64,000 nucleotides of DNA, taken from positions 394,536-458,535 of the forward strand of contig NZ_MVOI01000003.1 in NCBI RefSeq assembly GCF_002283555.1. The letters run 5' to 3'. The notes beneath the pieces were generated by a model. It was given only the letters and a program-made list of their open reading frames with translations, ran no database searches and was not told the DNA's origin. The position numbers and the translations under genes are program-made. Source of the DNA: Rubrivirga sp. SAORIC476 (lineage in GTDB: Bacteria > Bacteroidota > Rhodothermia > Rhodothermales > Rubricoccaceae). Below, piece by piece: positions 26,083 through 40,486 of this stretch (positions are counted from its first letter, which is position 1; each line of letters starts with the position of its first letter).

Positions 26083-26167
26083 CCGTCCGCCGTCCCGGCC
26101 CGACGTGAAGCCGAGGGCGATTCCGGGGCCGCGGCCCGACCCCGGCGCCGAGCACACGCCCCCGACG

Positions 26168-27472
26168 CTATCCGGCCGGCTTCGCCGCGACGTCGCCCGG
26201 CAGCGTCACCCGGACCGCGGCGCCGCCGAGCGAGCCAGGGCCGAGTTCGATCCGCCCGCCGTGGCTGACGGCGATCGCCCTGGCCAGCGACAGCCCAAGC
26301 CCGACGCGCCGGCCGGAGGCCCACCCGGAAGTAAACGGCTCGAACGCCGTCGCCAGCGTCGCCGGGTCGATTCCCGGACCGTCGTCGGCGACCGTCAACA
26401 CGACGTCGCCGCCGCCCGCTTCGGCGGTCACGGCCACGTGCCCGCCCCCCGACCGCGCCGCGAGCACGGCGTTGCCGATGAGGTTGCTCAGCATCCGGGC
26501 CAGCGCCGAGCCGACGCCCACGACCTCGACGCCCGGGACGACATCGACCGACACCTCGACGTCGCCGGCCGACGCCTGCGCGACCGCCGAGCGGACGACC
26601 TCGGCCAGGGCGACCGGCCGGAGCACGCCATCGACGCCGCGGGCGTGCTCGTACATCGAGCGCACGACCTCGTCGGCGCGTCGGCCCTGGCGGGCCGCCC
26701 CGTCGGCAGCCTCCGAGAGGGCGCGGAGGTGGGCTGCCGCCTCGCCCGTCAGTTCAGCCGTTTCGGCAAGCGCGGCGGCTTCGACCACGGCGGCCTCGGC
26801 GAACCCGACCGCGAGCCCGAGCGGGTTGCGGAGTTCGTGGGCCACGCCTGCCAGCAGTCGCCCGAGCCCGGCCAGCTTCTCCTGCTCGACGATCTGGGCC
26901 TGCATCTGGCGGACGTGCCGGAGGGTCTGGCGGAGCGCCTCGTTCGAGTCACGGAGCGCGCGGTCCCGCCGTGCGCGCTCGACAGCGTAGCGCAGCGTCC
27001 GGCGAAGCACCTCGGGCGTTAGCTCGGCCTTGACGAGATAGTCCGACGCCCCGGAGCGGACTGCGTCGAGCGCCACCTCGAGGTCGCCCAGCGACGTCAG
27101 CGCGACGACGGGCACGGCGTCGGCGACGGCCACGACGCGTGCCACGGTCTCCCAGTACTGAGAGTCCGGGAGTTGCTGGTCGGCCAGGACGACGTGGAAG
27201 GGGTCAGCGTCCGCGCCGGCGGCGTCCAGTGCGGCTGTCCCCGCCTCGACCGTCGTGACATGGTCGAGCCGAATCACCGGGTCGTGGACATCGGCGAGGT
27301 AGGCCTCGACGAGGGCCGCGTGGTCCGGGTTGTCCTCAATCAAGAGCACCCGAAGCGGGTCCGGCGTCTGCTCGACGACCTCCACGACGACGCCGTCGGC
27401 GCCCTCAGGATCGGTCAGGCCGTCCTGGGTCGTGGGCGTCGGCAGGGAACCGGGCGAGGGGGGCAGGGACAT
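26168..27472 (-). CDS. receiver-histidine kinase hybrid
   Basis: A 434-residue soluble protein. A response-regulator receiver covers residues about 40-160 (VLLIEDNPDHAAL; phospho-Asp in VVLADQQLPDS; Lys in YLVKAEL). A coiled coil follows, then a HisKA helix with phospho-His in GVAHELRNPLGLAV and an ATPase domain (SNLIGNAVLAA, DDGPGID, GLGLSLARAI). There is no membrane segment. A receiver placed N-terminal to the kinase suggests it is controlled by phosphorelay from its neighbours. It is the last gene of the run starting at 29859, only 4 bases after the Rcp1-like regulator. Confidence 0.9.
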   Translation of the reverse strand: MSLPPSPGSLPTPTTQDGLTDPEGADGVVVEVVEQTPDPLRVLLIEDNPDHAALVEAYLADVHDPVIRLDHVTTVEAGTAALDAAGADADPFHVVLADQQLPDSQYWETVARVVAVADAVPVVALTSLGDLEVALDAVRSGASDYLVKAELTPEVLRRTLRYAVERARRDRALRDSNEALRQTLRHVRQMQAQIVEQEKLAGLGRLLAGVAHELRNPLGLAVGFAEAAVVEAAALAETAELTGEAAAHLRALSEAADGAARQGRRADEVVRSMYEHARGVDGVLRPVALAEVVRSAVAQASAGDVEVSVDVVPGVEVVGVGSALARMLSNLIGNAVLAARSGGGHVAVTAEAGGGDVVLTVADDGPGIDPATLATAFEPFTSGWASGRRVGLGLSLARAIAVSHGGRIELGPGSLGGAAVRVTLPGDVAAKPAG

Positions 27473-27476
27473 ACGG

Positions 27477-27917
27477 TTAGGGGAGTCGATTCCAGCGGGC
27501 CCAGTAGTCGCCGAGCTCGTGGATCATGGCCTCGAACTTGGCGAAGTCGACGGGTTTGACGAGGTAGCTGTTGGCGTGCGTCCGGTAGGCGCGGGCTCGG
27601 TCGGACTCGGCGTCGCTCGTGGTGAGCACCACGACCGGGATCTCGCGCAACCCCTCGTCGCCCTTGACCTCCGCGAGCACGTCGAGGCCGCCCACGCGGG
27701 GCAGGTTGAGGTCGAGCAGGATGAGATCGGGGCGAGGCGCCTCGCCGTGGCTCTCGCGTCGGTACAGGATGTCCAGCGCCTCGGCGCCGTCCCGAGCCCG
27801 GATCGTCTGGTGGCGGGGATCATGGCTCTCGAGCGCGACCGCCGTGAGTTCAGCATGGTCGTCGTCGTCCTCAACCAGGAGGATGCAGAGGGGTCGAATA
27901 GGAAGATCGGAAGCCAT
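27477..27917 (-). CDS. single-domain response regulator (Rcp1-like)
   Basis: A 146-residue receiver without output domain. Visible residues are CILLVEDDDDHAEL, phospho-Asp in LILLDLNLPRVGG, Thr in VVLTTSDAE and Lys in YLVKPVDF. The long loop before the phospho-Asp is typical of the regulators that partner bacteriophytochromes and other PAS kinases. ATG 27917 gives a 19-base gap to the upstream kinase; an ATG at 27956 would overlap it. It probably shuttles phosphate from the PAS kinase to the receiver-kinase hybrid. Confidence 0.9.
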   Translation of the reverse strand: MASDLPIRPLCILLVEDDDDHAELTAVALESHDPRHQTIRARDGAEALDILYRRESHGEAPRPDLILLDLNLPRVGGLDVLAEVKGDEGLREIPVVVLTTSDAESDRARAYRTHANSYLVKPVDFAKFEAMIHELGDYWARWNRLP

Positions 27918-27936
27918 CGCGGAATGAGTGTGCAAA

Positions 27937-29859
27937 CTATGTACCAGAGGCCCCATTGTGCCGAGGCGGGGCGGAGAGAACGGCGTGGGGCGGAACTTCC
28001 AAAACGAACCGGGCGCCCTCCTGGCCCGGCGGCCCGTCGGCCCCCTCGACCCGCGCCTCACCTCCCAGCACCTCCATCACCCGGGAGACGACCGCGAGCC
28101 CGACGCCGGTCCCGTCGCCCCCGGTGTCGAGCCGCTGGAAGAGGTCGAAGACGCGGTCGCGGTACGCCTCGGGCACGCCGGGCCCGTCGTCCTCCACGAT
28201 CACGCGGAGGCCGCCACTGGGAGCCGGCTCGGACCGCACGACGACGCGTGAGCCCCCGCCCCCCAGCCCGTAGTGGACCGCATTCGCGAGCAGGTTCTCG
28301 AGCGCCTCCTCGATGCGCTGGGGGTCGGCCAGGAGGGCGCCCAGCGCGTCGCGCACCTCAAGGGTCCCGCCCACCGCCCGCGCGCGGACCGCGAGCTCGT
28401 TTACCAGACGGTTGGCAATCGCGTCGAGGTCGACCGGCCGGGGGTCCCCGGATGTCCGTCCCGACCGGCTCAGGACCAGCAGGTCCTCGATGAGCCGTCC
28501 CATCCGGTCGGCTGCGTTCAGGACCCGGTCGAGGGCCTGGTCGGCCTTCTCGGTCCGCCCGGCGGCGATGTACCCCTTGAGGAGGCCCAGGAACCCGGTG
28601 ATGGTGACGAGCGGCGACTTGAGGTCGTGCGAGACGGTGTAGGCGAACCGCTCCATCTCGGCGTTTTTCTGCCGGAGCACCTCCTCCTGCTGCCGCCGCT
28701 CGGTGACGTCGAAGTTGAACCCGTAGAGGCGCCCGCCGCCCCGGCCGTCGGCGATCACTCGCCCACGGGCAGCGAGCCAGCGGACCCGGCCGCCTGGGAG
28801 GAAGATCCGGAACTCGGCGTCGTACCGGTCCCCTCCTTCGATCGCCTCTACGATCGATTCCTTGAGTCCCGGGAGGTCGTCCGGGTGGACGATTTCGAAG
28901 AACGCCTCGGCGGAGGGCATTCCCTCGGCTCCCACGCCCCAGAGGTGAGCCGCCAGGTCATCGTGGACGAGCATGTCAGAGCCCACGTCCCACTCCCACG
29001 ACCCGATGCCGCCCCCTTCGAGCGCGAGTTGAAGCCGGACCTCGCTCTGGCGCAGCGCGAGCTCGGCGCGCTTCTGGTCGTCGATGTCCGTGCACGTCCC
29101 GAACCAGCGCAGGAGTTGGCCGTCAGGCGCGCGGAGCGGGTCGGCCCGGCCGATGAACCAGCGATGGGCGCCGTCGGTCTTCCGACGGATCCGATACTCG
29201 ACCTCGTACGGCTCGCCGGTCGCCAGCGAGTGGGCCCACCGCGCCGCCGCCGCGTCGAGGTCGTCGGGGTGGATGTAGTCGGCCCAGCGGAAGCCCTGAC
29301 TGCCGCCCCGGTTCTCGCCGCCGGGTTCATCGGGTCGGGGCATCCCGGTGTAGGCGTACCATCGCTCGTTGAAGTAATCGTGGTACCCCTCGGGCGTCGT
29401 CGTCCAGACGAGTTGAGGGAGCGACTCGGTGAGCTGACGGAGCTGGCGCTCACTCTCACGGAGCGCGGCCTCGGTCTGGCGAGCCTCACTGACGTCGGTG
29501 AAGTAGACCGTGAGGCCACCGTCGAACGGGAACGCGCGGACGGAGAAGTACCGGCCGAGCGGGTCGTAGGGCGCGTCGAACTGGACGGCCTCCCGGGTCT
29601 CGACGGCTCGGTGGTAGGCGTCCCAGAAAGGGCTCCCGACGGCCTCGGGGAACTCGTGCCATACGACCTTGCCCAGCAGGTCGGCCCGCGCACGATCCAG
29701 CAGGGACACCGCCTGGTCGTTGACGTAGGTGAACCGCCACTCGACGTCGAGCGCGAAGAAGGCGTCCGAGATCGACGCCAGCACGTCGGCCGCGTCGATC
29801 TCGGGGCCGGCGTCCGACACGGGGGCGTCCTCGGCGGACGGCGGGGGGACGGGAGGCAC
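27937..29859 (-). CDS. triple-PAS sensor histidine kinase
   Basis: A 640-residue soluble kinase with GTG start. Three PAS domains lie at about residues 25-130, 140-262 and 270-390 (for example DAFFALDVEWRFTYVND, ESLPQLVWTTTPEGYHDYFN, RWLAARGRVIADG). The HisKA helix has YTVSHDLKSPLVTI and the ATPase domain has ENLLANAVHYG, DDGPGVP and GVGLAVVSRVME. The architecture resembles the cyanobacterial Cph1-like kinases without a GAF/PHY module. No chromophore site is evident; the signal is unknown. It heads a three-gene phosphorelay operon and is divergent from the lipid-like operon at 30096. Confidence 0.92.
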   Translation of the reverse strand: MPPVPPPSAEDAPVSDAGPEIDAADVLASISDAFFALDVEWRFTYVNDQAVSLLDRARADLLGKVVWHEFPEAVGSPFWDAYHRAVETREAVQFDAPYDPLGRYFSVRAFPFDGGLTVYFTDVSEARQTEAALRESERQLRQLTESLPQLVWTTTPEGYHDYFNERWYAYTGMPRPDEPGGENRGGSQGFRWADYIHPDDLDAAAARWAHSLATGEPYEVEYRIRRKTDGAHRWFIGRADPLRAPDGQLLRWFGTCTDIDDQKRAELALRQSEVRLQLALEGGGIGSWEWDVGSDMLVHDDLAAHLWGVGAEGMPSAEAFFEIVHPDDLPGLKESIVEAIEGGDRYDAEFRIFLPGGRVRWLAARGRVIADGRGGGRLYGFNFDVTERRQQEEVLRQKNAEMERFAYTVSHDLKSPLVTITGFLGLLKGYIAAGRTEKADQALDRVLNAADRMGRLIEDLLVLSRSGRTSGDPRPVDLDAIANRLVNELAVRARAVGGTLEVRDALGALLADPQRIEEALENLLANAVHYGLGGGGSRVVVRSEPAPSGGLRVIVEDDGPGVPEAYRDRVFDLFQRLDTGGDGTGVGLAVVSRVMEVLGGEARVEGADGPPGQEGARFVLEVPPHAVLSAPPRHNGASGT

Positions 29860-30067
29860 GAGCGGTTGAGGGGCGGTCGCGGAAGGCAGAGCCGTACGAC
29901 CCAGACTCGCTCTCGTTTCCGGTCGGCCGGCGCCGCGGGCCGGTTGGCTCGATCTCTTGACGCGAGGCGACTCTCCGAGAGACGGCGACCCCGAGTCGCT
30001 CGACGTTTCTCCCAGGTGGCGCCCGCGCGTAGTGCAATCGGACTGGGTGCGTGCAGAGCCGCCCCTC

Positions 30068-30077
30068 TACCTTCGCG
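30068..30077 (+). promoter_or_regulatory. TACCTTCGCG promoter-like box of the radical SAM operon
   Basis: TACCTTCGCG lies 28 bases before the ATG at 30096, which is the first gene of the eight-gene operon. Confidence 0.45.
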
Positions 30078-30095
30078 ACATCTCCACACGTCGCC

Positions 30096-31460
30096 ATGGC
30101 CGCCCCGCTCCGCATCGCGCTCGTCTCGCCGCGAGGCCCCCTGTACCGCCACCGAGGCGGGGCGTGGCGGCGGCAGATGCGCTACGCGCCCCTCACGCTG
30201 ACGACCCTCGCGGCGCTCGTCCCGGACGACGTGCCCGCCGAGGTCGCGCTCTACGACGAGGGCCTGGGCGACGTGCCGGACGACCTCGACGCCGACCTGG
30301 TCGGCATCAGCGCGATCACGGGGACCGCGCCGCGCTCGTACGAGATCGCCGACGCGCTCCGGGCGCGCGGCGTGCCGGTCGTGCTCGGCGGCGTCCACCC
30401 GACGCTGGTGCCCGACGAGGCCCAGCGGCACGCGGACGCCGTCGTGACGGGCTACGCCGAGGACGCGTGGCCGGAGTTGCTGCGCGACGTCCGCGCCGGC
30501 CGGATGCGCGAGCGCTACGCCCAGGCGCCGGGCCTGAGTCTGGCCGGGCGTCCGCACCCGCGCCGCGACCTCTTGCCGACCGGGCGCGTGGCGCAGTCGT
30601 TCACCCTAGAGGCCACGCGCGGCTGCCAGCACCGCTGCGACTTCTGCGTCGTCCCGACGGCCTGGGGCGGGCCGATGCAGCGGCCCGTCGGCGAGGTGGT
30701 GGACGACATCGTGCGAGGCGGGGCGAAGCGGCTCCTGTTCCTCGACCTCAACCTGATCGGCGACGTGGGGTACGCGAAGGCGTTGTTCGAGGCGCTCGTC
30801 CCGCTCGGCGTCACCTGGGGGGGGCTGGCGACGACCCGCATCGCCGACGACCCGGAGTTGCTGGCGCTCGCCGCGCGGAGCGGCTGCCGGGCGCTACTCA
30901 TCGGCTTCGAGTCGCTGTCGGACGACACCCTGGCCGAGAGCCACAAGCGGTTCAACGCCGTCCGCGAGACGCCCGAGGCGAGCTACCGGCACGTGCTCGG
31001 GGCCCTCCACGACCACGGCATCGCGGTGATGGGCTGCTTCGTGTTCGGCTTCGACACCGACGCGCCCGACGTGTTCGACCGCACCGCCGCCTTCGTCCAC
31101 GACGCGAACGTCGACCTCCCCCGCTATGCGGTCCTGACGCCGTTCCCCGGCACGCCGCTCTACCGCAAGCTGTCCGCCGAGGGCCGCATCCTCACCGACG
31201 ACTGGGGCCTCTACGACGGCCAGCACGTCGTCTTCGAGCCCGCCCAGATGTCGGCCGACCAGCTGTTGCGCGGGACCGAGCGCGCGTGGCTCCGGACCTA
31301 CCGCTGGACTTCCATCGTGAAGCGGCTGGCGAGTTCGCGGACGCAGACGGCGCTCGCGCTGGCGACGAACGTCGGCTACCGCTACTACGCGCACCGGCTG
31401 AACGAGTACTATACCTGCGACTGGCAGCTCGGGCTGACGCCGGAGCGGAGGGCGGCCTGA
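30096..31460 (+). CDS. B12-binding radical SAM protein 1
   Basis: A 454-residue protein with an N-terminal cobalamin-binding-like Rossmann domain (about residues 1-140; LVGISAITGTAPRSYEIADALRARG, VVLGGVHPT) and a radical SAM domain. The cluster motif is CQHRCDFC with Cys177, Cys181 and Cys184. The C-terminal part has MGCFVFGFDTD and TPFPGTPLYRKL, as in the B12/radical SAM superfamily that includes methyltransferases and cyclases. The canonical DxHxxG cobalamin motif is not seen, as is common in this subgroup. First gene of the operon; its stop overlaps the Rieske gene start. Confidence 0.88.
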   Translation: MAAPLRIALVSPRGPLYRHRGGAWRRQMRYAPLTLTTLAALVPDDVPAEVALYDEGLGDVPDDLDADLVGISAITGTAPRSYEIADALRARGVPVVLGGVHPTLVPDEAQRHADAVVTGYAEDAWPELLRDVRAGRMRERYAQAPGLSLAGRPHPRRDLLPTGRVAQSFTLEATRGCQHRCDFCVVPTAWGGPMQRPVGEVVDDIVRGGAKRLLFLDLNLIGDVGYAKALFEALVPLGVTWGGLATTRIADDPELLALAARSGCRALLIGFESLSDDTLAESHKRFNAVRETPEASYRHVLGALHDHGIAVMGCFVFGFDTDAPDVFDRTAAFVHDANVDLPRYAVLTPFPGTPLYRKLSAEGRILTDDWGLYDGQHVVFEPAQMSADQLLRGTERAWLRTYRWTSIVKRLASSRTQTALALATNVGYRYYAHRLNEYYTCDWQLGLTPERRAA

Positions 31461-32392
31461 TGCAGGTCGACGCCCCCGCCGTCGCCCGAGGCCGTGCCTT
31501 CGCTCAACCAGGCGTGGCGACGAGCGCCTGGCTGCCGGTCGCCCGGAGCCGCGCGATCCGCTCGGGCCGCGTGCTCGGGGTCGACGCGCCCGGCGGGCCG
31601 GTCGCGCTGTGGCGGGACGCGCGCGGCACGCTCCACGCCGTCGACGCCCGGTGCCCCCACCTCGGCGCCGACCTGGGCCAGGGCAGCGTCGAAGCGGACG
31701 CGCTCGTGTGCCCGTTCCACGGCTGGGCCTTCGGCGGCGACGGGACCTGCCTCGGGGCGCCGGGCTGGAACGAGGCACCGACGCGACGCACCCGCTCGGT
31801 CCCGGTGCAGGAACGCTGGGGGCTGGTGTGGATCGCGACCGGGCCCGACCCGGTCGACCTCCCCGACCCGTCGCCGGGCGACTGGCGGATCGTCCGCCCG
31901 CCGTCGCAGACGATCGCCGCTCACCCGCACCTCGTCATCGGCAACGGACTCGACGCGGCGCACTTCGACACGCTGCACGGCCTGGAGCCGACGGCCGAGC
32001 CGGTCCTGAGCGTCGACCCGCCGCGCGTGACGCTGGAGATGCGGGGCAGAGCGAAGAGCCGGGCGCTGCGTCGGCTGCTGGGCGGCGACGTCTGGCTCCG
32101 GTTCACGACGCACGGCGGCCACATCGCCACGGCGGACGTCGAGGCGCCGGTCCGCTTCCGAGCGCTGTTTACGGCGACGCCCGTGCCCGAGGGCAGCCGG
32201 ACCCAGGTGGTCCTCTTCCTCCCGCGCGGGCCTGTCCGGACGCTCCGCGCCGCCGTCGGCCTCTACGCGCTCTTGCACGACGACGCCCGCATCCTGGAAC
32301 GCGTGCGCTTCCGGCGCGCCTTCACCCCCGCCGACGGGCCGCTCCAGGCCTTCGCCGAGGTGGTGGACGGCTTGCCCAGAGGTCGGTCATGA
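31460..32392 (+). CDS. Rieske-type oxygenase
   Basis: A 310-residue protein. The Rieske [2Fe-2S] motif is CPH at 65-67 and CPFH at 84-87 (ARCPHLGADLG..LVCPFHGWAFGGDG). The C-terminal half holds a mononuclear-iron motif N162, D165, H168 and H173 in GNGLDAAHFDTLHG, so it is a catalytic oxygenase and not only an electron carrier. No reductase gene is in the cluster, so a housekeeping ferredoxin system must supply electrons. TGATG overlap with the upstream radical SAM gene and ATGA overlap with the next one imply coupled translation and shared pathway. Confidence 0.9.
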   Translation: MQVDAPAVARGRAFAQPGVATSAWLPVARSRAIRSGRVLGVDAPGGPVALWRDARGTLHAVDARCPHLGADLGQGSVEADALVCPFHGWAFGGDGTCLGAPGWNEAPTRRTRSVPVQERWGLVWIATGPDPVDLPDPSPGDWRIVRPPSQTIAAHPHLVIGNGLDAAHFDTLHGLEPTAEPVLSVDPPRVTLEMRGRAKSRALRRLLGGDVWLRFTTHGGHIATADVEAPVRFRALFTATPVPEGSRTQVVLFLPRGPVRTLRAAVGLYALLHDDARILERVRFRRAFTPADGPLQAFAEVVDGLPRGRS

Positions 32393-33750
32393 GGGTCGCC
32401 TTCCTCCGTCCCAGCCTCGACGGCGGCCGCGCGCACGACGCGATGGAGCCGCTGGCCTTCGCCGCGCTCGCCGCGGTGTCGCCCGAGGGGACCACGCACA
32501 CGCTCCACGACGAGCGGCTGGCGCCGATTCCTACCCGCCTGAACACGGACCTCGCCGCGATTACGGTCGAGACCTACACCGCCCGCCGCGCCTACCAGAT
32601 CGCCGACAGCCTCCGCGCACAGGGCGTGCCCGTCGTGATGGGCGGCTACCACCCGACGTTCCTGCCCGACGAGGCGGCGCAGCACGCCGACGCGGTCGTT
32701 CTGGGCGATGGCGAGCCCGTCTGGCCCCAGGTCGTGGCCGATGCCGCCGCCGGTCGCCTCCGACCCCGCTACGAAGCGGACGGCTTCCCCGACCTCGCGA
32801 CGCTCCGGTTCGACCGGTCGCTCTTCCACGGGATGGACTACCAGAAGGTGATGCCGGTGCAGGTCGGGCGCGGCTGCCGGTTCGCGTGCGACTTCTGCTC
32901 GATCCACGCCTTCTACGGCCGGTCCCTGCGCCAGCGTCCGCCCCAGGCCGTCGCCGACGAGATCCGCCGGTCCGGCGCGCGCCACGTGCTGCTGGTGGAC
33001 GACAACCTGCTGGTCGACCGCGAGCAGGCCGCCGCGCTGTTCGAGGCGCTGATCCCGATCGGCATCACGTGGGGCTGTCAGGTGACGCTCGACGTGACGC
33101 ACGACCTGGAACTCCTCGACCTGATGGCGCGGAGCGGCTGCATCGCCGCGCTCGTCGGCTTCGAGTCGCTGGACGACGGCAACCTGGGCCAGATGCGCAA
33201 GCGGTTCAACACGGTCGGCGGGCCCTATGCCGAGGCCATCGGCCGCTTCCACGACCGCGGCATCATGGTCTACGGCTCGTTCGTGTTCGGCTACGACCAC
33301 GATGGCCCCGACTGCTTCGAGCGAACGGTCCAGTTCGCGCTCGACCATCGCCTCTTCCTCGTCAACTTCAGCGCCCTCCAGCCGACGCCCGCGACGCGCC
33401 TCTACGCCCGCCTGGAGAGCGAGGGCCGTCTCCTCCACGACGCGTGGTGGACCGACCCGACGTACCGCTACGGCGACGCCGCCTTCCAGCCCGCCCGCCT
33501 CAGCCCAGACGAGCTCACCGAGGGCTGCCGCCGCGCCCGCCAGCAGTTCTTTCGGCCTCGGTCGATCTGGCGACGCACCTGGACCCGCCCGCACGCCCGC
33601 TCACCGCGACGCCTGGCCATCTACCTCGGCGCCAACGTCATGGCGAGGCGGGCGCTGAAAGCCAAGCTGGGCAAGCCCCTCGGGAAGAGGGAAATGGGAA
33701 ATGGGAACGGGGAAATGGCAGACTCCCGACTCATCACCGTGCCGGCCTGA
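32389..33750 (+). CDS. B12-binding radical SAM protein 2
   Basis: A 453-residue paralogue of the next gene but one. The cobalamin-like domain shows VETYTARRAYQIADSLRAQGVPVVMGGYHPT. The radical SAM motif is GRGCRFACDFCSIHAFYG with Cys163, Cys167 and Cys170. Then come FVFGYDHDG and QPTPATRLYARLES. It shares long near-identical stretches with protein 3, which points to a tandem duplication. The last 20 or so residues (from about GKREMGNGNGEM) are encoded by low-complexity GGGAAATGG repeats and look like an addition to the true C-terminus. Confidence 0.88.
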   Translation: MRVAFLRPSLDGGRAHDAMEPLAFAALAAVSPEGTTHTLHDERLAPIPTRLNTDLAAITVETYTARRAYQIADSLRAQGVPVVMGGYHPTFLPDEAAQHADAVVLGDGEPVWPQVVADAAAGRLRPRYEADGFPDLATLRFDRSLFHGMDYQKVMPVQVGRGCRFACDFCSIHAFYGRSLRQRPPQAVADEIRRSGARHVLLVDDNLLVDREQAAALFEALIPIGITWGCQVTLDVTHDLELLDLMARSGCIAALVGFESLDDGNLGQMRKRFNTVGGPYAEAIGRFHDRGIMVYGSFVFGYDHDGPDCFERTVQFALDHRLFLVNFSALQPTPATRLYARLESEGRLLHDAWWTDPTYRYGDAAFQPARLSPDELTEGCRRARQQFFRPRSIWRRTWTRPHARSPRRLAIYLGANVMARRALKAKLGKPLGKREMGNGNGEMADSRLITVPA

Positions 33751-33780
33751 CCGCCCCACGTTTCACGTTCCACGCCGCAC
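33679..33780. repeat. low-complexity insert: GGGAAATGG units and a CCCCACGTTTCA unit
   Basis: Imperfect tandem GGGAAATGGGAAATGGGAAC-like units encode the tail of radical SAM protein 2. Immediately after the stop follow CCCCACGTTTCACGTTCCACG-like pyrimidine units. The 14-mer CGCCCCACGTTTCA also occurs inverted at about 40490, in another gap. Confidence 0.65.
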
Positions 33781-33794
33781 CTTCCACCCCTCCC

Positions 33795-35213
33795 ATGCGC
33801 CTGACCCTCGTCCACCCCTGCATCGGCCGTCGGCCTGGGGAGCCGTACATCAAGGCGTGGCAGATGGAGCCGCTGCCGCCCGCCACGCTCGCCGGGCTCA
33901 CGCCTCCCGACTGGGAGGTCCGCTTCCACGACGACCGGATGGAGGCCATCCCGTTCGACGAGCCGACCGACTTGGTGGCGATCTCGGTCGAGACGTACAC
34001 CGCGCGACGGGCGTACCAGATCGCGTCCGAGTACCGGCGGCGCGGCGTGCCGGTCGTGATGGGCGGCTTCCACGCGACGCTCGTCCCGGAGGAGGTGTCG
34101 CGCTACTGCGAGGCGTTGGTCATCGGCGAGGTGGAGGGCGTCTGGGCGACGGTGCTGGCGGACGCGGCGGCCGGGCGGCTCCAGCGCGTCTACCGCGGCG
34201 AGGGCCGGCCCGGGCTGGCGGGGCTCCGCCCCGACCGCTCCATCTTCGCGGGCAAGCAGTACCTCCCCATCGGACTGGTGGAGGCCGGGCGCGGGTGCCA
34301 CTTCAAGTGCGAGTTCTGCGCCGTCACGTCGTACTTCGGCGCGACGCAGACCCGGCGGCCGGTGGAGGACGTGCTCCGGGAGGTCCGCGAGGTGACCGAG
34401 GCGGGCCGGAAGCTGCTCTTCTTCGTGGACGACAACATCACGTCCAACATGGACGAGGCCAAGGAGCTGTTCCGCGCGCTCAAGCACGAGAAGATCCGCT
34501 GGGTGAGCCAGGCGAGCATCAACGCGGCGCACGACGAGGAATACCTGACGCTGCTGGGCGAGAGCGGCTGCCAGGGCGTGCTGATCGGCTTCGAGACGCT
34601 CAACGAGGCCAACCTGAGGCAGATGCGCAAGCGCTTCAATACGATGCGCGGCGGCTACGCAAAGGCGCTCGAGAACCTGCGGCGCCACGGCGTGCGGCTG
34701 TACGCGACGTTCGTGGTCGGCTACGACGAGGACACCGAGGCGAGCGTGGATCAAGCGCTGCGGTTCGCGCTCGACCACAAGTTCTACATCGCCGCCTTCA
34801 ACCACCTGACGCCGTTCCCCGGGACGGCCCTCTACGACCGGCTCAAGGACGAGGGGCGGCTCCGCTACGACGCGTGGTGGCTGGACCCGGCCTACCGCTA
34901 CAACGAGGTCCCGTTCTGGCCCGCCAAGATGACGCCCGAGCAGGTCCGCGCGTCGTGCGTCGAGGCGCGCGCCCGGTTCTACCGCTGGCGCTCGATCGCG
35001 CGACGGAGCGTCGACCGGGTGAATGCGGGCAACGCGATGATGTGGTCGGCCTTCTGGACCATCAACGCGATGCTGCGGGCGGAGGTCGACCAGCGCGACG
35101 GCTACCCGCTGGGCGACCTCGGCTACACCGGCGAGATCATCGAGGCGAGCCATTCCGAGCCGTTCTCGATGACGACCCGGCCACGCGGCGCGCTGGAGGC
35201 GTGGGCGGCGTGA
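33795..35213 (+). CDS. B12-binding radical SAM protein 3
   Basis: A 472-residue enzyme closely similar to protein 2. Cobalamin-like domain at about residues 1-140 (ISVETYTARRAYQIASEYRRRGVPVVMGGFHATL), radical SAM motif GRGCHFKCEFCAVTSYFG with Cys168, Cys172 and Cys175, and TPFPGTALYDRLKDEG in the C-terminal part. It may catalyse a methylation or ring-forming step; which one cannot be told. ATG 33795 follows a repeat-filled 44-base gap, the widest gap in the operon. Its TGA overlaps the next gene start (GTGA). Confidence 0.9.
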   Translation: MRLTLVHPCIGRRPGEPYIKAWQMEPLPPATLAGLTPPDWEVRFHDDRMEAIPFDEPTDLVAISVETYTARRAYQIASEYRRRGVPVVMGGFHATLVPEEVSRYCEALVIGEVEGVWATVLADAAAGRLQRVYRGEGRPGLAGLRPDRSIFAGKQYLPIGLVEAGRGCHFKCEFCAVTSYFGATQTRRPVEDVLREVREVTEAGRKLLFFVDDNITSNMDEAKELFRALKHEKIRWVSQASINAAHDEEYLTLLGESGCQGVLIGFETLNEANLRQMRKRFNTMRGGYAKALENLRRHGVRLYATFVVGYDEDTEASVDQALRFALDHKFYIAAFNHLTPFPGTALYDRLKDEGRLRYDAWWLDPAYRYNEVPFWPAKMTPEQVRASCVEARARFYRWRSIARRSVDRVNAGNAMMWSAFWTINAMLRAEVDQRDGYPLGDLGYTGEIIEASHSEPFSMTTRPRGALEAWAA

Positions 35214-36298
35214 CCCGCTTGGCTCCCCCGATCTCCCGCCAGAGGAGCGATCCGTCGGGTCGCCCCGCACGTACCGTGGCGACGGGCCTCGTCGAGCGCG
35301 CCACCGAGGCGGACGAACCGGGCCTCCGGGCGCTCTTGCGCGAGGTCACCGTGCCCGGCGCGGTCCGCCTGAGCTACCAACGCGAACCTGCTTTCCACGC
35401 CGCCGACGCCTGCCTCGGGGACCGCGTGGACACCCTGGCCGGGCGGCTCGCCCCGGACGGCCCGCCCGTCGCCGTCGTCCAGCGCGCGAGCCGGACCGTG
35501 TTCGTGGACGGCCGACCGACCCGCGTCGGCTACATCGGCGGCCTCCGGGCGCGACCCGACCGGACGGTGCGGACGCTCGTCGGCCAGGGGTGGACGCAGC
35601 TCCGCGCCGTGCACGACGCCGACCCGGTGCCAGTCACGTTCCTCGCCGTCACCGCCGAGAACGACCGCATCCGCCGCCTGCTTGCCGTCCAGCGCGGCGA
35701 CGCGCCCACGGTCACGCCCGTCGCCGACGTGGTGACGCTGGCCCTCGTCGTCCACCGTCGCCACCGCACCCATGCTCCGGTTGATCCCGCCGACGCCGAT
35801 ACGCTGCGAGCCGCCCTCGGCCCGGCCCGCGACCTCTTCCCCGCCGGTCCCCTCCCTCGCCTCGGCGAGACGACCGAGGTGGCTGTGGATGGTGCCGCGC
35901 TGACGCTGTGGGACGCCTCGCCCGTCCGCCAGACGGTCGTGCGCGGGTACGACGGCGTGCTGGGCCGCGTCCGCCCGCTCGCGAACGGTGCGTTGCGGAT
36001 GTTGGGCGCGTCGCCGCTGCCCGCCATCGGCCGACCGCTTCGGTCGGCCTTCGCAGTGCGGCCGGTCTGGCGCGACGCCGAGGCGCTGGACGCGGTCGTC
36101 GGCGCGGCGCTGGGCGAGGCGCGGGCGCAGGGGCTGGCCTTTCTTCTCCTGGGGCTCGACGCCCGCGATCCGGCGCTGCCGCTTCTCCAGCGTCGCCTCC
36201 ACGTCGCGTACCGGAGCACGCTGCTCGCGGCGACGTGGCCCGGCGACGCCCCTCCCTCCTTTCGCTCCCCGGTCCATGTCGAGATCGCCAGCTACTAG
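35210..36298 (+). CDS. GNAT-like acyltransferase (operon, first)
   Basis: A 362-residue protein with two GNAT-like halves. The N-terminal one has VERATEADEPGLRALLREV at the start of the fold and GYIGGLRARPDRTVRTLVGQGW near the acyl-CoA loop. The GTG start overlaps the stop of radical SAM protein 3. The second half (FAVRPVWRDAEALDAVVGAALGEAR) is more diverged. Such proteins occur beside radical SAM genes in several phyla. Acyl or aminoacyl transfer is the inferred role; the family is not firmly identified. Confidence 0.6.
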   Translation: MTRLAPPISRQRSDPSGRPARTVATGLVERATEADEPGLRALLREVTVPGAVRLSYQREPAFHAADACLGDRVDTLAGRLAPDGPPVAVVQRASRTVFVDGRPTRVGYIGGLRARPDRTVRTLVGQGWTQLRAVHDADPVPVTFLAVTAENDRIRRLLAVQRGDAPTVTPVADVVTLALVVHRRHRTHAPVDPADADTLRAALGPARDLFPAGPLPRLGETTEVAVDGAALTLWDASPVRQTVVRGYDGVLGRVRPLANGALRMLGASPLPAIGRPLRSAFAVRPVWRDAEALDAVVGAALGEARAQGLAFLLLGLDARDPALPLLQRRLHVAYRSTLLAATWPGDAPPSFRSPVHVEIASY

Positions 36299-37016
36299 CG
36301 CGCCTGCGCCGACCGCCCCCACCAGCACGGGCGAGGTCCGCCCGGTCCGCGACCTCACCGAGGCGGAGCGGGACGCGATGCGGGCCCTCCTCGACGGCCC
36401 CTTCGCGGACGTCACGCCCGAGGCCTTCGGGGCCGACCTCGACGAGAAGGACGCGGCGGTCCTGCTCTACGACCCCACGGGCCGGCTCGCGGGCTTCTCG
36501 ACGCTCCTGCGCATCGACGCCACGCACGGCGGTCGGCCGGTGACGGCGTTCTTCAGCGGCGACACCGTCGTGCGCACCGACGCACGCGGCGCGGCGCTGC
36601 TGCCCCGGCTGTGGAGCCAGCACGTGTTCGCGGAGGCGGCCCGCCAGCCCGAGCGCGACACGGTCTGGTTCCTCCTCTCGTCCGGCTTCCGGACGTACCG
36701 TTTCCTGCCGACGTTCTTCGCCCGGTTCACGCCCTCGCACGACGACCGCTCGCCCGAGTCCGACCGCGCCCTCCTGGCCGCGCTCGCCCGCGCCCGCTAC
36801 GCCGACCGCTACGACGCCGACGCCGGGGTCGTCCGCCTCGCGCACCCGACGCCGCTCCGCGACGACCCCACGCTGAGCCGCCGCCTCTCCGACCCGCACG
36901 TCGCCTTCTTCGCCCATTCCAACCCCGGCTGGACGCAGGGCGACGAGCTGGCCTGCCTCACCCGCATCCACCCCGACAACCTCACCGAGGCGGGACGGCG
37001 GATGGTATACGGCTGA
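36276..37016 (+). CDS. GNAT-like protein (operon, second)
   Basis: A 246-residue protein of unknown family. The pattern VRDLTEAERDAMRALLDG, then LYDPTGRLAGFSTLLRID and TAFFSGDTVVRTDARGAALLPRLW, resembles a GNAT fold with the acyl-CoA loop near the last block. It starts inside the preceding gene (22-base overlap in another frame), which shows tight coupling. The C-terminal block HVAFFAHSNPGWTQGDELACLTRI is unusual. Function inferred only from the neighbourhood. Confidence 0.6.
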   Translation: MSRSPATSAPAPTAPTSTGEVRPVRDLTEAERDAMRALLDGPFADVTPEAFGADLDEKDAAVLLYDPTGRLAGFSTLLRIDATHGGRPVTAFFSGDTVVRTDARGAALLPRLWSQHVFAEAARQPERDTVWFLLSSGFRTYRFLPTFFARFTPSHDDRSPESDRALLAALARARYADRYDADAGVVRLAHPTPLRDDPTLSRRLSDPHVAFFAHSNPGWTQGDELACLTRIHPDNLTEAGRRMVYG

Positions 37017-37042
37017 CCTGCTTACCCACACCCCTCCCTGCC

Positions 37043-38041
37043 ATGCTTCCGTCCGAGCCCCTCACGACGCGCCAAGCCCGCGCGGCCCTGACCGAGATCC
37101 TGGGCGACGCCCTGCCACCCCTCCGCGAGCTCCGCCTGGGGCGGCGGCTGGAGGAGATCGCCGTGTTCGGCGGGTTGTGGGGCGTCGGGCTGGCGCTGGC
37201 CTGGGGGAGCGGGCAGGCCGAGGGCGCGGCGCAGTGGGCGCTGCGCGGCGGGGCCGTCCTCGCGTCGGCGCTGGCGCTGAACGCGTTCGTGCTGCTGCTG
37301 CACGAGGGAATGCACGGCGTCCTGTTCCGGTCGCCCGTCCTCAACCGCTGGGTGTCCGTCGCGCTCGGGGCGACGGTCGGCATGTCGTTCTCGGCGTACC
37401 GGGTGCTCCACACGATGCACCACGACCACCTCGGGAGCGACGACGATCCGGACGACTACGCGGCCTACACCGACCGGCCGGTCGTCTTCTGGCTGATGCA
37501 GGGCCTGCGCCTGAGCGTCGGCGCGTTCATCTACCTCGTCGCGATCCCCATCGTCGCGTCGCGGCGCGGGACGGCGACCGACCGCGTGCGGATCGCGCAG
37601 GAGTACGTGGTCCTGGCGCTCCTCTGGACGGCCGCCGCGCTGCTCGTGCCCTCTTCCATCCTGATCTGGGGCTGGCTCGCCGCGCTGCCCGTCGTCGCGC
37701 TGATGGTTCAGATCCGCGGGCTCACCCAGCACGGGCTGACGGAGCGCCACGACGCGTTGCTGTCGAGCCGGACGGTCCGCCCGCACCCGGTGGTCGCCTT
37801 CTTCCTGCTCAACGAGAACTACCACCTGGAGCACCACCTGTACCCGGAGGTGCCGAGCTACCACCTGCCGGCGCTCCACCGGGCGGCCTGGGATCACCTG
37901 CCGCGGACGTGCGAGGACACGTCGTACCTGGGCTTCCTCGGGCGCTTCGTGCAGCAGTCGTGGGCGCTCGACGAGACGCCGGTCGGGGTGGTCCACCGCG
38001 ACGTGCCTGCGTCCCGCCTCGGCGCGGCCGAGCCAGCGTGA
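37043..38041 (+). CDS. membrane fatty-acid desaturase
   Basis: A 332-residue integral membrane di-iron desaturase/hydroxylase. All three histidine boxes are present: HEGMH (87-91), HTMHHDH (123-129) and HLEHH (261-265, in NENYHLEHHLYPEVP). The last form is close to that of carotenoid ketolases and front-end desaturases, so a hydroxylase function is possible. It acts at the cytoplasmic face of the inner membrane on acyl chains. It follows the second GNAT-like gene by 26 bases and its stop overlaps the GH3 start (GTGA). Confidence 0.9.
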   Translation: MLPSEPLTTRQARAALTEILGDALPPLRELRLGRRLEEIAVFGGLWGVGLALAWGSGQAEGAAQWALRGGAVLASALALNAFVLLLHEGMHGVLFRSPVLNRWVSVALGATVGMSFSAYRVLHTMHHDHLGSDDDPDDYAAYTDRPVVFWLMQGLRLSVGAFIYLVAIPIVASRRGTATDRVRIAQEYVVLALLWTAAALLVPSSILIWGWLAALPVVALMVQIRGLTQHGLTERHDALLSSRTVRPHPVVAFFLLNENYHLEHHLYPEVPSYHLPALHRAAWDHLPRTCEDTSYLGFLGRFVQQSWALDETPVGVVHRDVPASRLGAAEPA

Positions 38042-39645
38042 GGGCACGGCTCGCGAACGCGGCCTGGGCGCTCGCGTCCCGCCCCGCCGCCACCGCGTTC
38101 CACCGCGCCCTGGCCGACCCCGAACGCGCGCAGACGGCGCTCTTGCTGGCGACGCTCCGAGCGAACGCGAACACGGCCTACGGACGGGCGTACGGGTTCG
38201 GCCGCGTCCAGTCGCTCCGCCAGTTCCAGGACGCCGTGCCGGTCGTCGGCTGGGACGAGGTCGCGCCGTACGTCGACCGCATCGCGTCGGGCGAGGCGAA
38301 CGTGCTGACCGCCGAGCCGGTCCGCCTGCTGGAGCCGACCGGCGGCTCGTCGGGCGGGACGAAGTGGATTCCCTACACCCGGACGCTCCAAACCCAGATC
38401 CGCGCCGCCGTCGCCCCGTGGATCGCCGACCTGTTCCGGAGCGTGCCCGCCTCGGCGCACGGGCCAGCCTATTGGTCGGTCTCCCCCGCCGTCGCTCAGG
38501 AGCGGACGGCGGGCGGCCTCCCCGTCGGTTTCGAGGACGACGGCGCGTACCTGTCGCCTCTGCATCGGACGCTGGCCCGCGCCACCCTGGCCGTCCCCGG
38601 CGCCCTGCGCCACGTGGCCGATCCCGAGGCGTTCCGCTACGCGACGCTCCGCCATCTCGTCGCCCGGCGCGACCTCGCGGTCGTGTCGGTCTGGAACCCG
38701 ACGTTTCTCACGCTCCTCCTGCGCCCGCTCCGCGCCTGGGCCGACCGACTCGCGCGCGACCTCGACCGGGGTACGCTCTCGGCCGACGTGCCCGACGCCG
38801 TCGCTGCGGGCCTCCGCCCCGACCCGACCCGCGCCGCCGAGGTGCGCCGTCTCATCGCCCAGACGACCACCGAGGCGGACCTCGTCGCCGCGCTCTGGCC
38901 GCGCCTCGCCCTGGTCAGCGCGTGGGCCGACGGGCATGCCGCGGGGCCAGCTCGCTCGCTTCAGGCGCTCGTGCCTCAGGCGGCCTTTCAACCGAAGGGA
39001 CTGATCGCCACTGAGGGCATCGTCACGATTCCATTGTGGGGCCACGGCGGCGGCGCGCCCGCGCTGACGAGTCATGTCCTCGAGTTCGTGCCCGAGGGCG
39101 GTGGGCGGCCGCGGTTCGCCCACGAGGTCGAGACCGGCGCGCGCTACGGCGTCCTCCTCACGACCGGGGGCGGGCTGACGCGCTACCGCCTGGGCGACAC
39201 CGTCGAGGCGGTCGGCCAGGTCGCCGCGTCACCGCTGCTGCGGTTCGTCGGGCGCGAGCGGGCCGTGTCGGACCGCGTCGGCGAGAAGCTGCACGAGGGC
39301 CATGTCGCCCAGGCACTCGCCGCGCTCGACCTCGACGGGTTCTCGATGGTGGCCCCAGACGACACCTCGGCCCCCATCCGCTACGTCCTGTTCTCCGACG
39401 CCTCGGGCCTACCCACGGCAGCGCGGCGGCTGGACGAGGCGCTCCAGACCAACGTCCACTACGCGCTCGCCCGGCGCCTCGGCCAACTCGGCCCCGTCGC
39501 GGCGTTCCGGGTCCGCGGCGACGCCGAGGCGGGCTACCTCGCCGGGTGCGTCGCCCTCGGTCAGCGGCTGGGCGACGTCAAGCCGACCGCCCTCCACCGC
39601 GACGGCGGGTGGGCGGACCGGTTCGAGGGTGACTGGGTCGCGTGA
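38038..39645 (+). CDS. GH3-family acyl-adenylating amide ligase
   Basis: A 535-residue GH3 auxin-responsive promoter-family protein, an ANL-type enzyme that adenylates a carboxylate and joins it to an amine, usually an amino acid. The ATP loop is GSSGGTKWIPYT (about 103-114). Further blocks are WSVSPAV, GIVTIPLW, HVLEFVPEG, and the Tyr-Arg-Leu-Gly-Asp loop RYRLGDTVEAVG. The GTG start overlaps the desaturase stop. As the last gene of the operon it probably couples the acyl product made by the preceding enzymes to an amine. Confidence 0.88.
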   Translation: MRARLANAAWALASRPAATAFHRALADPERAQTALLLATLRANANTAYGRAYGFGRVQSLRQFQDAVPVVGWDEVAPYVDRIASGEANVLTAEPVRLLEPTGGSSGGTKWIPYTRTLQTQIRAAVAPWIADLFRSVPASAHGPAYWSVSPAVAQERTAGGLPVGFEDDGAYLSPLHRTLARATLAVPGALRHVADPEAFRYATLRHLVARRDLAVVSVWNPTFLTLLLRPLRAWADRLARDLDRGTLSADVPDAVAAGLRPDPTRAAEVRRLIAQTTTEADLVAALWPRLALVSAWADGHAAGPARSLQALVPQAAFQPKGLIATEGIVTIPLWGHGGGAPALTSHVLEFVPEGGGRPRFAHEVETGARYGVLLTTGGGLTRYRLGDTVEAVGQVAASPLLRFVGRERAVSDRVGEKLHEGHVAQALAALDLDGFSMVAPDDTSAPIRYVLFSDASGLPTAARRLDEALQTNVHYALARRLGQLGPVAAFRVRGDAEAGYLAGCVALGQRLGDVKPTALHRDGGWADRFEGDWVA

Positions 39646-39649
39646 GGCT

Positions 39650-40486
39650 CTACGCCAGCGTCTCCACCACGTCGCCCATGAGGGTCGCGAGGCTGGGCTC
39701 GGCCTCTGCAGCGGCCGCGATGACGTCCTCGATGGAGACCGGCTCCAGGGCGTCTGGAAAGCACTCGTCCGTGACCACCGAGATGGCCATGCACCGCATC
39801 CCCTGGTGCCGGGCGACGATGACCTCGGGGACCGTGCTCATGCCCACCACGTCGGCGCCGATGGCGCGCAGGAAGCGGTACTCGGCGCGCGTCTCCAGGT
39901 TGGGCCCGACGACGGCGACGTAGACGCCCTGCTGAAGACGTATGCCCCGCTCCAGCGCGGCCGCCTCGGCGGCATCGCGCAAGGCCCGGTCGTAGGGCTC
40001 CGACATGTCGGGGAAGCGCGGGCCCCAGTCGGCCACGTTCGGACCGGTGAGCGGGTTGACGCCCTGCAGGTTGATGTGGTCAGTCGTCAGCATCAGGTCG
40101 CCGCGCCGGTAGAGCGGGTTCATGCCGCCCGCCGCGTTCGAGATCAGCAACGTCTCGACGCCCAGCGCCGCCATCACGCGGACGGGCAGCGTGGCCTGCC
40201 ACGCCGAGTAGCCCTCGTAGATGTGGAAGCGGCCCTGCATGGCCAGCACCTCGACGCCGCGCAACGTCCCGGCGATCAGGCGCCCCTCGTGGCTCTCGAC
40301 GGTCGAGAGCGGGAAGTGGGGGATCTCGCTGTACGGGACTGCCTCACGGATCTCGACCTCGTCGGCCAGCTTGCCCAGGCCGGTACCCAGGATGATGCCG
40401 ACACGGGCGGCGTCGCCGATGCGGTCACGGAGGGCGTCGGCGGCCTCCTGGACCTGGGCGCGGGCGGTGTCGATGTCGGGGGTCAT
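39650..40486 (-). CDS. punA: purine-nucleoside phosphorylase
   Basis: A 278-residue phosphorylase of the trimeric PNP family. Signatures are VGIILGTGLGKLADEV, FHIYEGYSAWQ, LLISNAAGGMNPLYRRGDLMLTTDHINL, and GVYVAVVGPNLETRAEYRFLRAIGADVVGMSTVPEV with the purine-site residues. Trimeric PNPs phosphorolyse inosine and guanosine. It is convergent with the GH3 gene, only 4 bases apart, and co-directional with divIVA upstream. Confidence 0.94.
   Translation of the reverse strand: MTPDIDTARAQVQEAADALRDRIGDAARVGIILGTGLGKLADEVEIREAVPYSEIPHFPLSTVESHEGRLIAGTLRGVEVLAMQGRFHIYEGYSAWQATLPVRVMAALGVETLLISNAAGGMNPLYRRGDLMLTTDHINLQGVNPLTGPNVADWGPRFPDMSEPYDRALRDAAEAAALERGIRLQQGVYVAVVGPNLETRAEYRFLRAIGADVVGMSTVPEVIVARHQGMRCMAISVVTDECFPDALEPVSIEDVIAAAAEAEPSLATLMGDVVETLA

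Follow-up and report, generated by a model that had tools for sequence, protein, structure and literature searches.

The bacterium Rubrivirga sp. SAORIC476 carries an operon of eight genes at positions 30096-39645 of the window analysed here, a stretch of 64,000 nt from contig NZ_MVOI01000003.1 (394,536-458,535, forward strand). The operon is one copy of a widespread, horizontally moving gene cluster, the product of which is probably an N-acylated (amide) lipid or a lipoamino acid. Its genes are designated g1 to g8 in order, and the loci compared with it bear L-numbers. The eight genes are one conserved biosynthetic unit and not a chance assembly, because the same genes are found together in dozens of unrelated genomes. 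Such a unit had been supposed in a first-pass annotation made from the letters of the window, and the recurrence of the gene set across phyla supports it.

A genome scan with g4 (33795-35213, + strand), a core gene for B12-binding/radical S-adenosylmethionine (SAM) enzyme C, found 66 loci, most of them in metagenome bins, with 50-68% identity in 65 of the 66. Relatives of g4 are present in at least 11 other phyla, among them Pseudomonadota, Verrucomicrobiota, Planctomycetota, Chloroflexota, Acidobacteriota, Myxococcota, Gemmatimonadota and Campylobacterota. All five core genes (g1, g4, g5, g6 and g8) are present in 39 of the 65 loci and, where at least 6 kb is available on both sides, in 23 of 26. 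The loci were chosen by g4, so the presence of this gene is by construction, and that of g1, g5, g6 and g8 is independent. Gene maps feature a recurrent block in the order g1-g4-g5-g6-g8 or g6-g8-g1-g4-g5. Orthologues of g1 (30096-31460, + strand), which encodes B12-binding/radical SAM enzyme A, have 46-70% identity and adjoin g4 in most loci. An independent search of 288 Verrucomicrobiota genomes with g5 by itself gave 13 matches, and nearly all the stretches fetched carry adjoining g4-, g6- and g8-like genes. The g5 probe matched 20 of 246 Planctomycetota, 5 of 398 Pseudomonadota and 3 of 201 Chloroflexota genomes, the centre genome being counted in each of the three figures; two of the three Chloroflexota matches are distant proteins outside the cluster, and some planctomycete matches are distant too.

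The accessory genes of the window (g2, g3 and g7) each have relatives in other cluster copies. Those of g2 were found in about ten other clusters and in locus L138, and homologues of g7 (35-39% identity) lie directly upstream of radical SAM genes in L056, L057, L089 and L096. The recurring accessory genes of the cluster as a whole are g3 with a fourth radical SAM gene, two kinds of desaturase, Rieske, DUF4440, PAP2 phosphatase and AurF-type oxygenase genes, and genes for a hexapeptide protein and a membrane protein. A variant in L136-L138 has g6, g8 and g5 together and no radical SAM gene in the stretches read, so these three genes look like the amide-making heart of the cluster. L138 additionally contains Rieske, desaturase, AurF-type, hexapeptide, PAP2 and DUF4440 genes. 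A PAP2 phosphatase fused to a squalene/phytoene-synthase-like domain stands beside core genes in three loci (L085:7171-8649; L088, ORF L088_2; L080:14537-16861).

The eight open reading frames (ORFs) are intact and all on the + strand, as the first reading had it. Five of the seven junctions overlap, by 1, 4, 4, 23 and 4 bp, and the other two are gaps of 26 bp and 44 bp; the six junctions originally counted as overlapping or within 30 bases are the five overlaps and the 26 bp gap. The GC content at third codon positions is 0.90-0.97 across all eight genes. Pfam and NCBIfam identify six of the genes clearly as members of a superfamily; all eight can be placed in a superfamily, and none can be given a known function. 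The families first named (B12/radical SAM, Rieske, desaturase and GH3) were recovered with Pfam and by motifs, and two GNAT-like calls, correct and weak by sequence, were settled by structure models, which assign GNAT folds to both g5 and g6. No polyketide synthase, non-ribosomal peptide synthetase or carrier-protein gene is found in the operon, again as noted at first.

The most distinctive product is that of g5 (35210-36298, GTG start, + strand), a core gene whose structure model and C-terminus point to a tandem-GNAT acyltransferase resembling eukaryotic N-myristoyltransferase (NMT). The window protein has no Pfam match, and the family is only faintly GNAT-like by sequence. An AlphaFold2 model built from 55 sequences has a tandem GNAT fold with a predicted local distance difference test (pLDDT) score of 90. 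Foldseek ranks NMT first for this model, and the first 50 entries listed by VIA-align are all NMTs (Z 19.6-20.6), the top alignment having Z 20.6 and a root-mean-square deviation (rmsd) of 3.6 over 294 aligned residues. The alignments run the whole length (~292 residues, rmsd 3.5-3.9 Å), and the last residue of the model falls at or beside the last residue of NMT.

The C-terminal carboxylate of NMT is its catalytic base (PMC7048800), and a review regards NMT as the only member of the GNAT superfamily to work in this way (PMC4964394). In the g5 family, 54 of 55 rows end in a single alignment column, the last residue being Leu in 51, Met in 2, Tyr in 1 (the window) and Gly in 1. As controls, the other core families end in a single column in 8 of 50, 7 of 43, 10 of 51 and 30 of 63 rows. 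The fixed ending is also present in Verrucomicrobiota sequences outside the alignment and in a plasmid-borne Citrobacter copy described below. An origin of the fixed C-terminus as a by-product of overlap with the next gene was rejected, as it holds in 18 of 18 loci where there is no overlap. This is good evidence that the carboxylate is under constraint, and indirect evidence that the family may use NMT-like catalysis. The link to NMT comes from the fold and the C-terminus, since the g5 sequence profile, compared with the PDB sequences, returned generic GNATs and chance matches and no NMT. The likeness may reflect shared descent or convergence, and we do not place the g5 family within NMT. NMT is eukaryotic, whereas g5 is bacterial and lies in a biosynthetic operon, so its acceptor is probably a small amine. 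No description of a bacterial NMT was found in the literature searched, which left out most subscription papers.

At the margins of the family the fixed ending is less strict, and a set of distant planctomycete members has Val or Ala as the last residue; the g5 relatives of L125-L130 end so (PGFEMALV, PGFEIAFA), mostly in rearranged or divergent neighbourhoods. L134 and L135 (Chloroflexota) encode distant g5-like tandem GNATs with neither the cluster nor the fixed C-terminal motif.

The second amide-forming candidate is the core gene g8 (38038-39645, GTG start, + strand), which encodes a GH3-family acyl acid amido synthetase. All three GH3 domains (PF03321, PF23571 and PF23572) score above their cut-offs. 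Homologues were aligned from 42 other loci: T325-E326 is invariant in the family, the invariant residues of the ATP-binding stretches are kept, and the family consensus for motif I, PTSGSTGGxK, has one residue fewer than its plant counterpart. Motif III of g8 (GLTRYRLGD) is plant-GH3-like. ATP-dependent amide formation is likely for the family because of this plant-like motif III and the invariant residues in the ATP-binding stretches. Amide formation had been proposed in the first-pass annotation, and the NMT-like second N-acyltransferase beside the GH3 ligase strengthens that proposal.

The nearest functional parallel is the OlsH/OlsI ornithine-lipid pathway, in which a bacterial GH3-family ligase likewise forms an N-acyl amide as part of amino-lipid chemistry: OlsH of the planctomycete Singulisphaera acidiphila makes N-acyl ornithine (PMC12493201). 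However, g8 scores 47.1 bits with the OlsH NCBIfam model, the equivalog cut-off of which is 620. The neighbours of OlsH are an N-methyltransferase and an alpha/beta hydrolase, whereas g8 is surrounded by desaturase, Rieske, GNAT and radical SAM genes; neither "radical" nor "desaturase" appears as a word in the OlsH/OlsI paper (PMC12493201).

The core gene g6 (36276-37016, + strand) encodes a single-domain GNAT-fold acyltransferase according to its structure model. By sequence it matches Acetyltransf_9 under the cut-off (E=0.001); the model is a confident single GNAT domain (pLDDT 95). Homologues were aligned from 49 other loci. The donor of g6 cannot be read from the model, because the model resembles many acetyltransferases and FeeM (an N-acyl amino acid synthase) alike.

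The remaining genes encode putative chain-tailoring enzymes. The products of g1, g3 and g4 combine B12-binding and Radical_SAM domains (PF02310 and PF04055 in g1) and carry the 4Fe-4S motifs CQHRCDFC, CRFACDFC and CHFKCEFC, which places them in the B12-binding radical SAM superfamily (CxxxCxxC with a B12-binding domain). The B12 domain of g4 is barely above the Pfam cut-off, and the classic DxHxxG motif is found in no member of the g1 or g4 families. The accessory gene g3 (32389-33750, + strand; B12-binding/radical SAM enzyme B) is usually paired with the fourth radical SAM gene, D. The three proteins share their architecture with the ladderane-type family TIGR04072, but reach only 52.4, 80.3 and 70.7 bits against a cut-off of 360, and the operon has no ketoacyl synthase or carrier-protein gene. 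Their best-scoring named relatives are HpnJ, BchE and PhpK, with 70-104 bits against cut-offs of 480-600 (g3 with BchE, 104 bits against 481), and neither hopanoid nor bacteriochlorophyll genes are present in the operon. The host plausibly uses B12, since its genome contains other B12-binding proteins. The end of g3 (region 33685-33795 of the window) has a low-complexity tail, GKREMGNGNGEMADSR. The gap between g3 and g4 contains ACGTTTCACGTTCCACG, which is weakly matched at 40477 and 7704 and may be a dispersed repeat.

The accessory gene g2 (31460-32392, + strand; PF00355) encodes a Rieske [2Fe-2S] non-haem iron oxygenase with an intact Rieske motif (CxH...CxxH) and a D-x2-H-x4-H mononuclear iron site. 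It shares this arrangement with the saxitoxin-type and steroid enzymes SxtT, KshA and SdmA, but does not reach their equivalog cut-offs and lies in a different gene context. The accessory gene g7 (37043-38041, + strand) encodes a membrane di-iron enzyme of the fatty-acid-desaturase type (PF00487, E=1e-37) with the three histidine boxes HEGMH, HTMHH and HLEHH of the membrane desaturase superfamily.

Taken with these enzyme types, the cluster can be assigned a provisional pathway. The GH3 ligase g8 would activate a free acid with ATP and couple it to an amine or amino acid, and g5 would acylate an amine with a long chain taken from a coenzyme A (CoA) or acyl carrier protein (ACP) thioester, the C-terminal carboxylate of g5 itself serving as the base; g6 would perhaps carry out a further N-acyl transfer. 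The radical SAM enzymes, of which g1 and g4 are present almost without exception and g3 and the fourth often, would methylate, dehydrogenate or cyclise the chain at its unactivated carbons. The Rieske enzyme g2 and the di-iron enzyme g7 would introduce hydroxyl groups or double bonds, relying on redox partners encoded elsewhere in the genome. An amide lipid is the product suggested because GH3 and NMT-like enzymes form amides and the accessory genes (desaturases, PAP2, Rieske) are of lipid type. The first-pass annotation had supposed that an acyl chain is altered at its unactivated carbons before it is joined to an amine; the radical SAM and oxygenase genes fit such an alteration and make it plausible, and nothing in the cluster singles out a fatty acyl substrate or this order of steps.

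Several points weigh against this pathway. The radical SAM proteins are far under every named NCBIfam cut-off, so that the scores do not discriminate between methylation, cyclisation and dehydrogenation. There is no significant sequence match between g5 and NMT, the best being Pfam NMT_C at E=0.0065 in 1 of 58 members. The g5 protein of the window deviates at 6 of 29 near-invariant columns, including T145L and the change of the C-terminal Leu to Tyr, so its activity may differ; position T145, Leu in the window, is near-invariant in the family (50 of 55) and is plausibly placed as a candidate equivalent of the active-site Thr282 of NMT. The PAP2/squalene-phytoene-synthase-like fusion in some loci fits poorly with a plain fatty acyl substrate.

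The main doubt concerns the identity of the chain. It might be an isoprenoid, such as a terpenoid, carotenoid or hopanoid-like acid, which is oxidised and joined to an amine. The nearest relative of g2 is the 4beta-methylsterol monooxygenase SdmA, those of the radical SAM enzymes are HpnJ and BchE, and g7 partly resembles CrtW/CrtR; PAP2 phosphatases recur, and three loci have the fusion with a squalene/phytoene-synthase-like domain. All these matches are weak and far under the family cut-offs, however, no cyclase or prenyltransferase is conserved, the synthase-like domain is limited to 3 of about 66 loci, and the NMT-like acyltransferase suggests acyl chains. An isoprenoid chain is unlikely, although it is the most probable of the alternatives.

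Slightly less likely again is a small secreted specialised metabolite, such as a signal or antibiotic-like N-acyl amino acid, in place of a membrane lipid. Patchy occurrence, carriage on a plasmid and horizontal spread are typical features of clusters for specialised metabolism, soluble conjugates are among the products of GH3 and GNAT enzymes, and some loci include an AurF-type oxygenase; on the other side, the conserved set has no exporter or resistance gene, and the desaturase and PAP2 partners are membrane-lipid-like. It is improbable that g5 truly N-acylates a peptide or protein and that a peptide is what the cluster lipidates. In favour, g5 has the fold and fixed C-terminus of NMT, an enzyme that acylates peptides at the N-terminus, but known GH3 enzymes use free amino acids, and no conserved gene for a small peptide was seen between the core genes, where ORFs under 90-100 aa were not systematically searched. 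A chance neighbourhood of eight unrelated genes in a GC-rich genome, for which one can cite only their membership of different enzyme families, is refuted by the recurrence of the core in many phyla.

The cluster has probably been gained in the lineage of this species, because three congeners have the isoleucyl-tRNA synthetase gene ileS beside the purine nucleoside phosphorylase (PNP) gene where the window carries an extra segment of ~13.5 kb (26141-39643). The congener genomes (L105, L106 and L107) align to the window until ~26140 and resume at ~39644-39650 with little between, and ileS and PNP are directly adjacent in all three. Gain is the simplest reading, and loss in the congeners is the alternative. 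Besides the operon, the segment contains three signalling genes on the - strand (26168-29859), encoding a receiver plus histidine kinase, a single receiver and a PAS histidine kinase. No GH3 gene of any kind was found in the three congeners, nor was the cluster found in the sampled members of the genus, family and order. Among 60 relatives, the g5 probe matched no genome besides the window's own. Among 395 genomes of the phylum, the sole match of more than 50% identity to g4 outside the window's own genome was on a short contig of a distant bin, where g4 is again followed by g5. In the g4 tree, the window groups with Chloroflexota (support 90, under the starred level) and not with its own phylum. 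A check for the gene set across Rhodothermota, as recommended initially, would mislead, because the relatives of the cluster are in other phyla.

A GH3 match in a genome of the same family (G401) was considered as a second copy of the cluster and rejected, since it is a different GH3 gene and lies at the edge of a contig. A GH3 gene that is not beside the cluster also occurs in many other families of the order, and the GH3 profile aligns to it as two separate segments; the g5 probe did not find g5 in the order-level genomes carrying it.

In a plasmid collection there was one strong match, a mobilizable plasmid of IncF type and 159 kb in Citrobacter portucalensis 64A:C, which came from the cloaca of a gull. 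The plasmid has a complete relative of the cluster with five radical SAM genes (NZ_CP134684.1, 51417-63512; L145:10361-22456). A single run comprises g6, GH3, two radical SAM genes, g5, two more radical SAM genes, PAP2 and DUF4440, and the fifth radical SAM gene and a desaturase gene are in the opposite orientation. The g5 homologue ends in EIALL. No near-identical copy of the cluster was found in 5,426 E. coli genomes (megablast) or in other plasmids.

The enzymes belong to known superfamilies; no description of their combination or of the NMT-like member was found in the literature searched, where a cluster of GH3 and radical SAM genes with Rieske/desaturase or acyltransferase/lipid genes does not appear. 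The cluster joins B12/radical SAM carbon chemistry, GH3 amide ligases, for which a part in bacterial lipid synthesis was shown only lately, and a bacterial NMT-like acyltransferase, which were not seen together before. It is quite possible, and is proposed here tentatively, that the clusters of these phyla make a hitherto unseen N-acyl lipid tailored by radical SAM enzymes, the hallmark of which would be a bacterial relative of NMT with C-terminal-carboxylate catalysis. The g5 family allows a cheap test of this catalysis outside NMT, and the cluster can be reached in the laboratory via the Citrobacter plasmid and the cultured Chthoniobacter flavus (strain Ellin428). If the proposal is true, perhaps 1-8% of species in several phyla would make a class of lipid or lipoamide that is plasmid-mobile and of a structure unreported in that literature, and the bacterial g5 family would bear on the origin of protein N-myristoylation.

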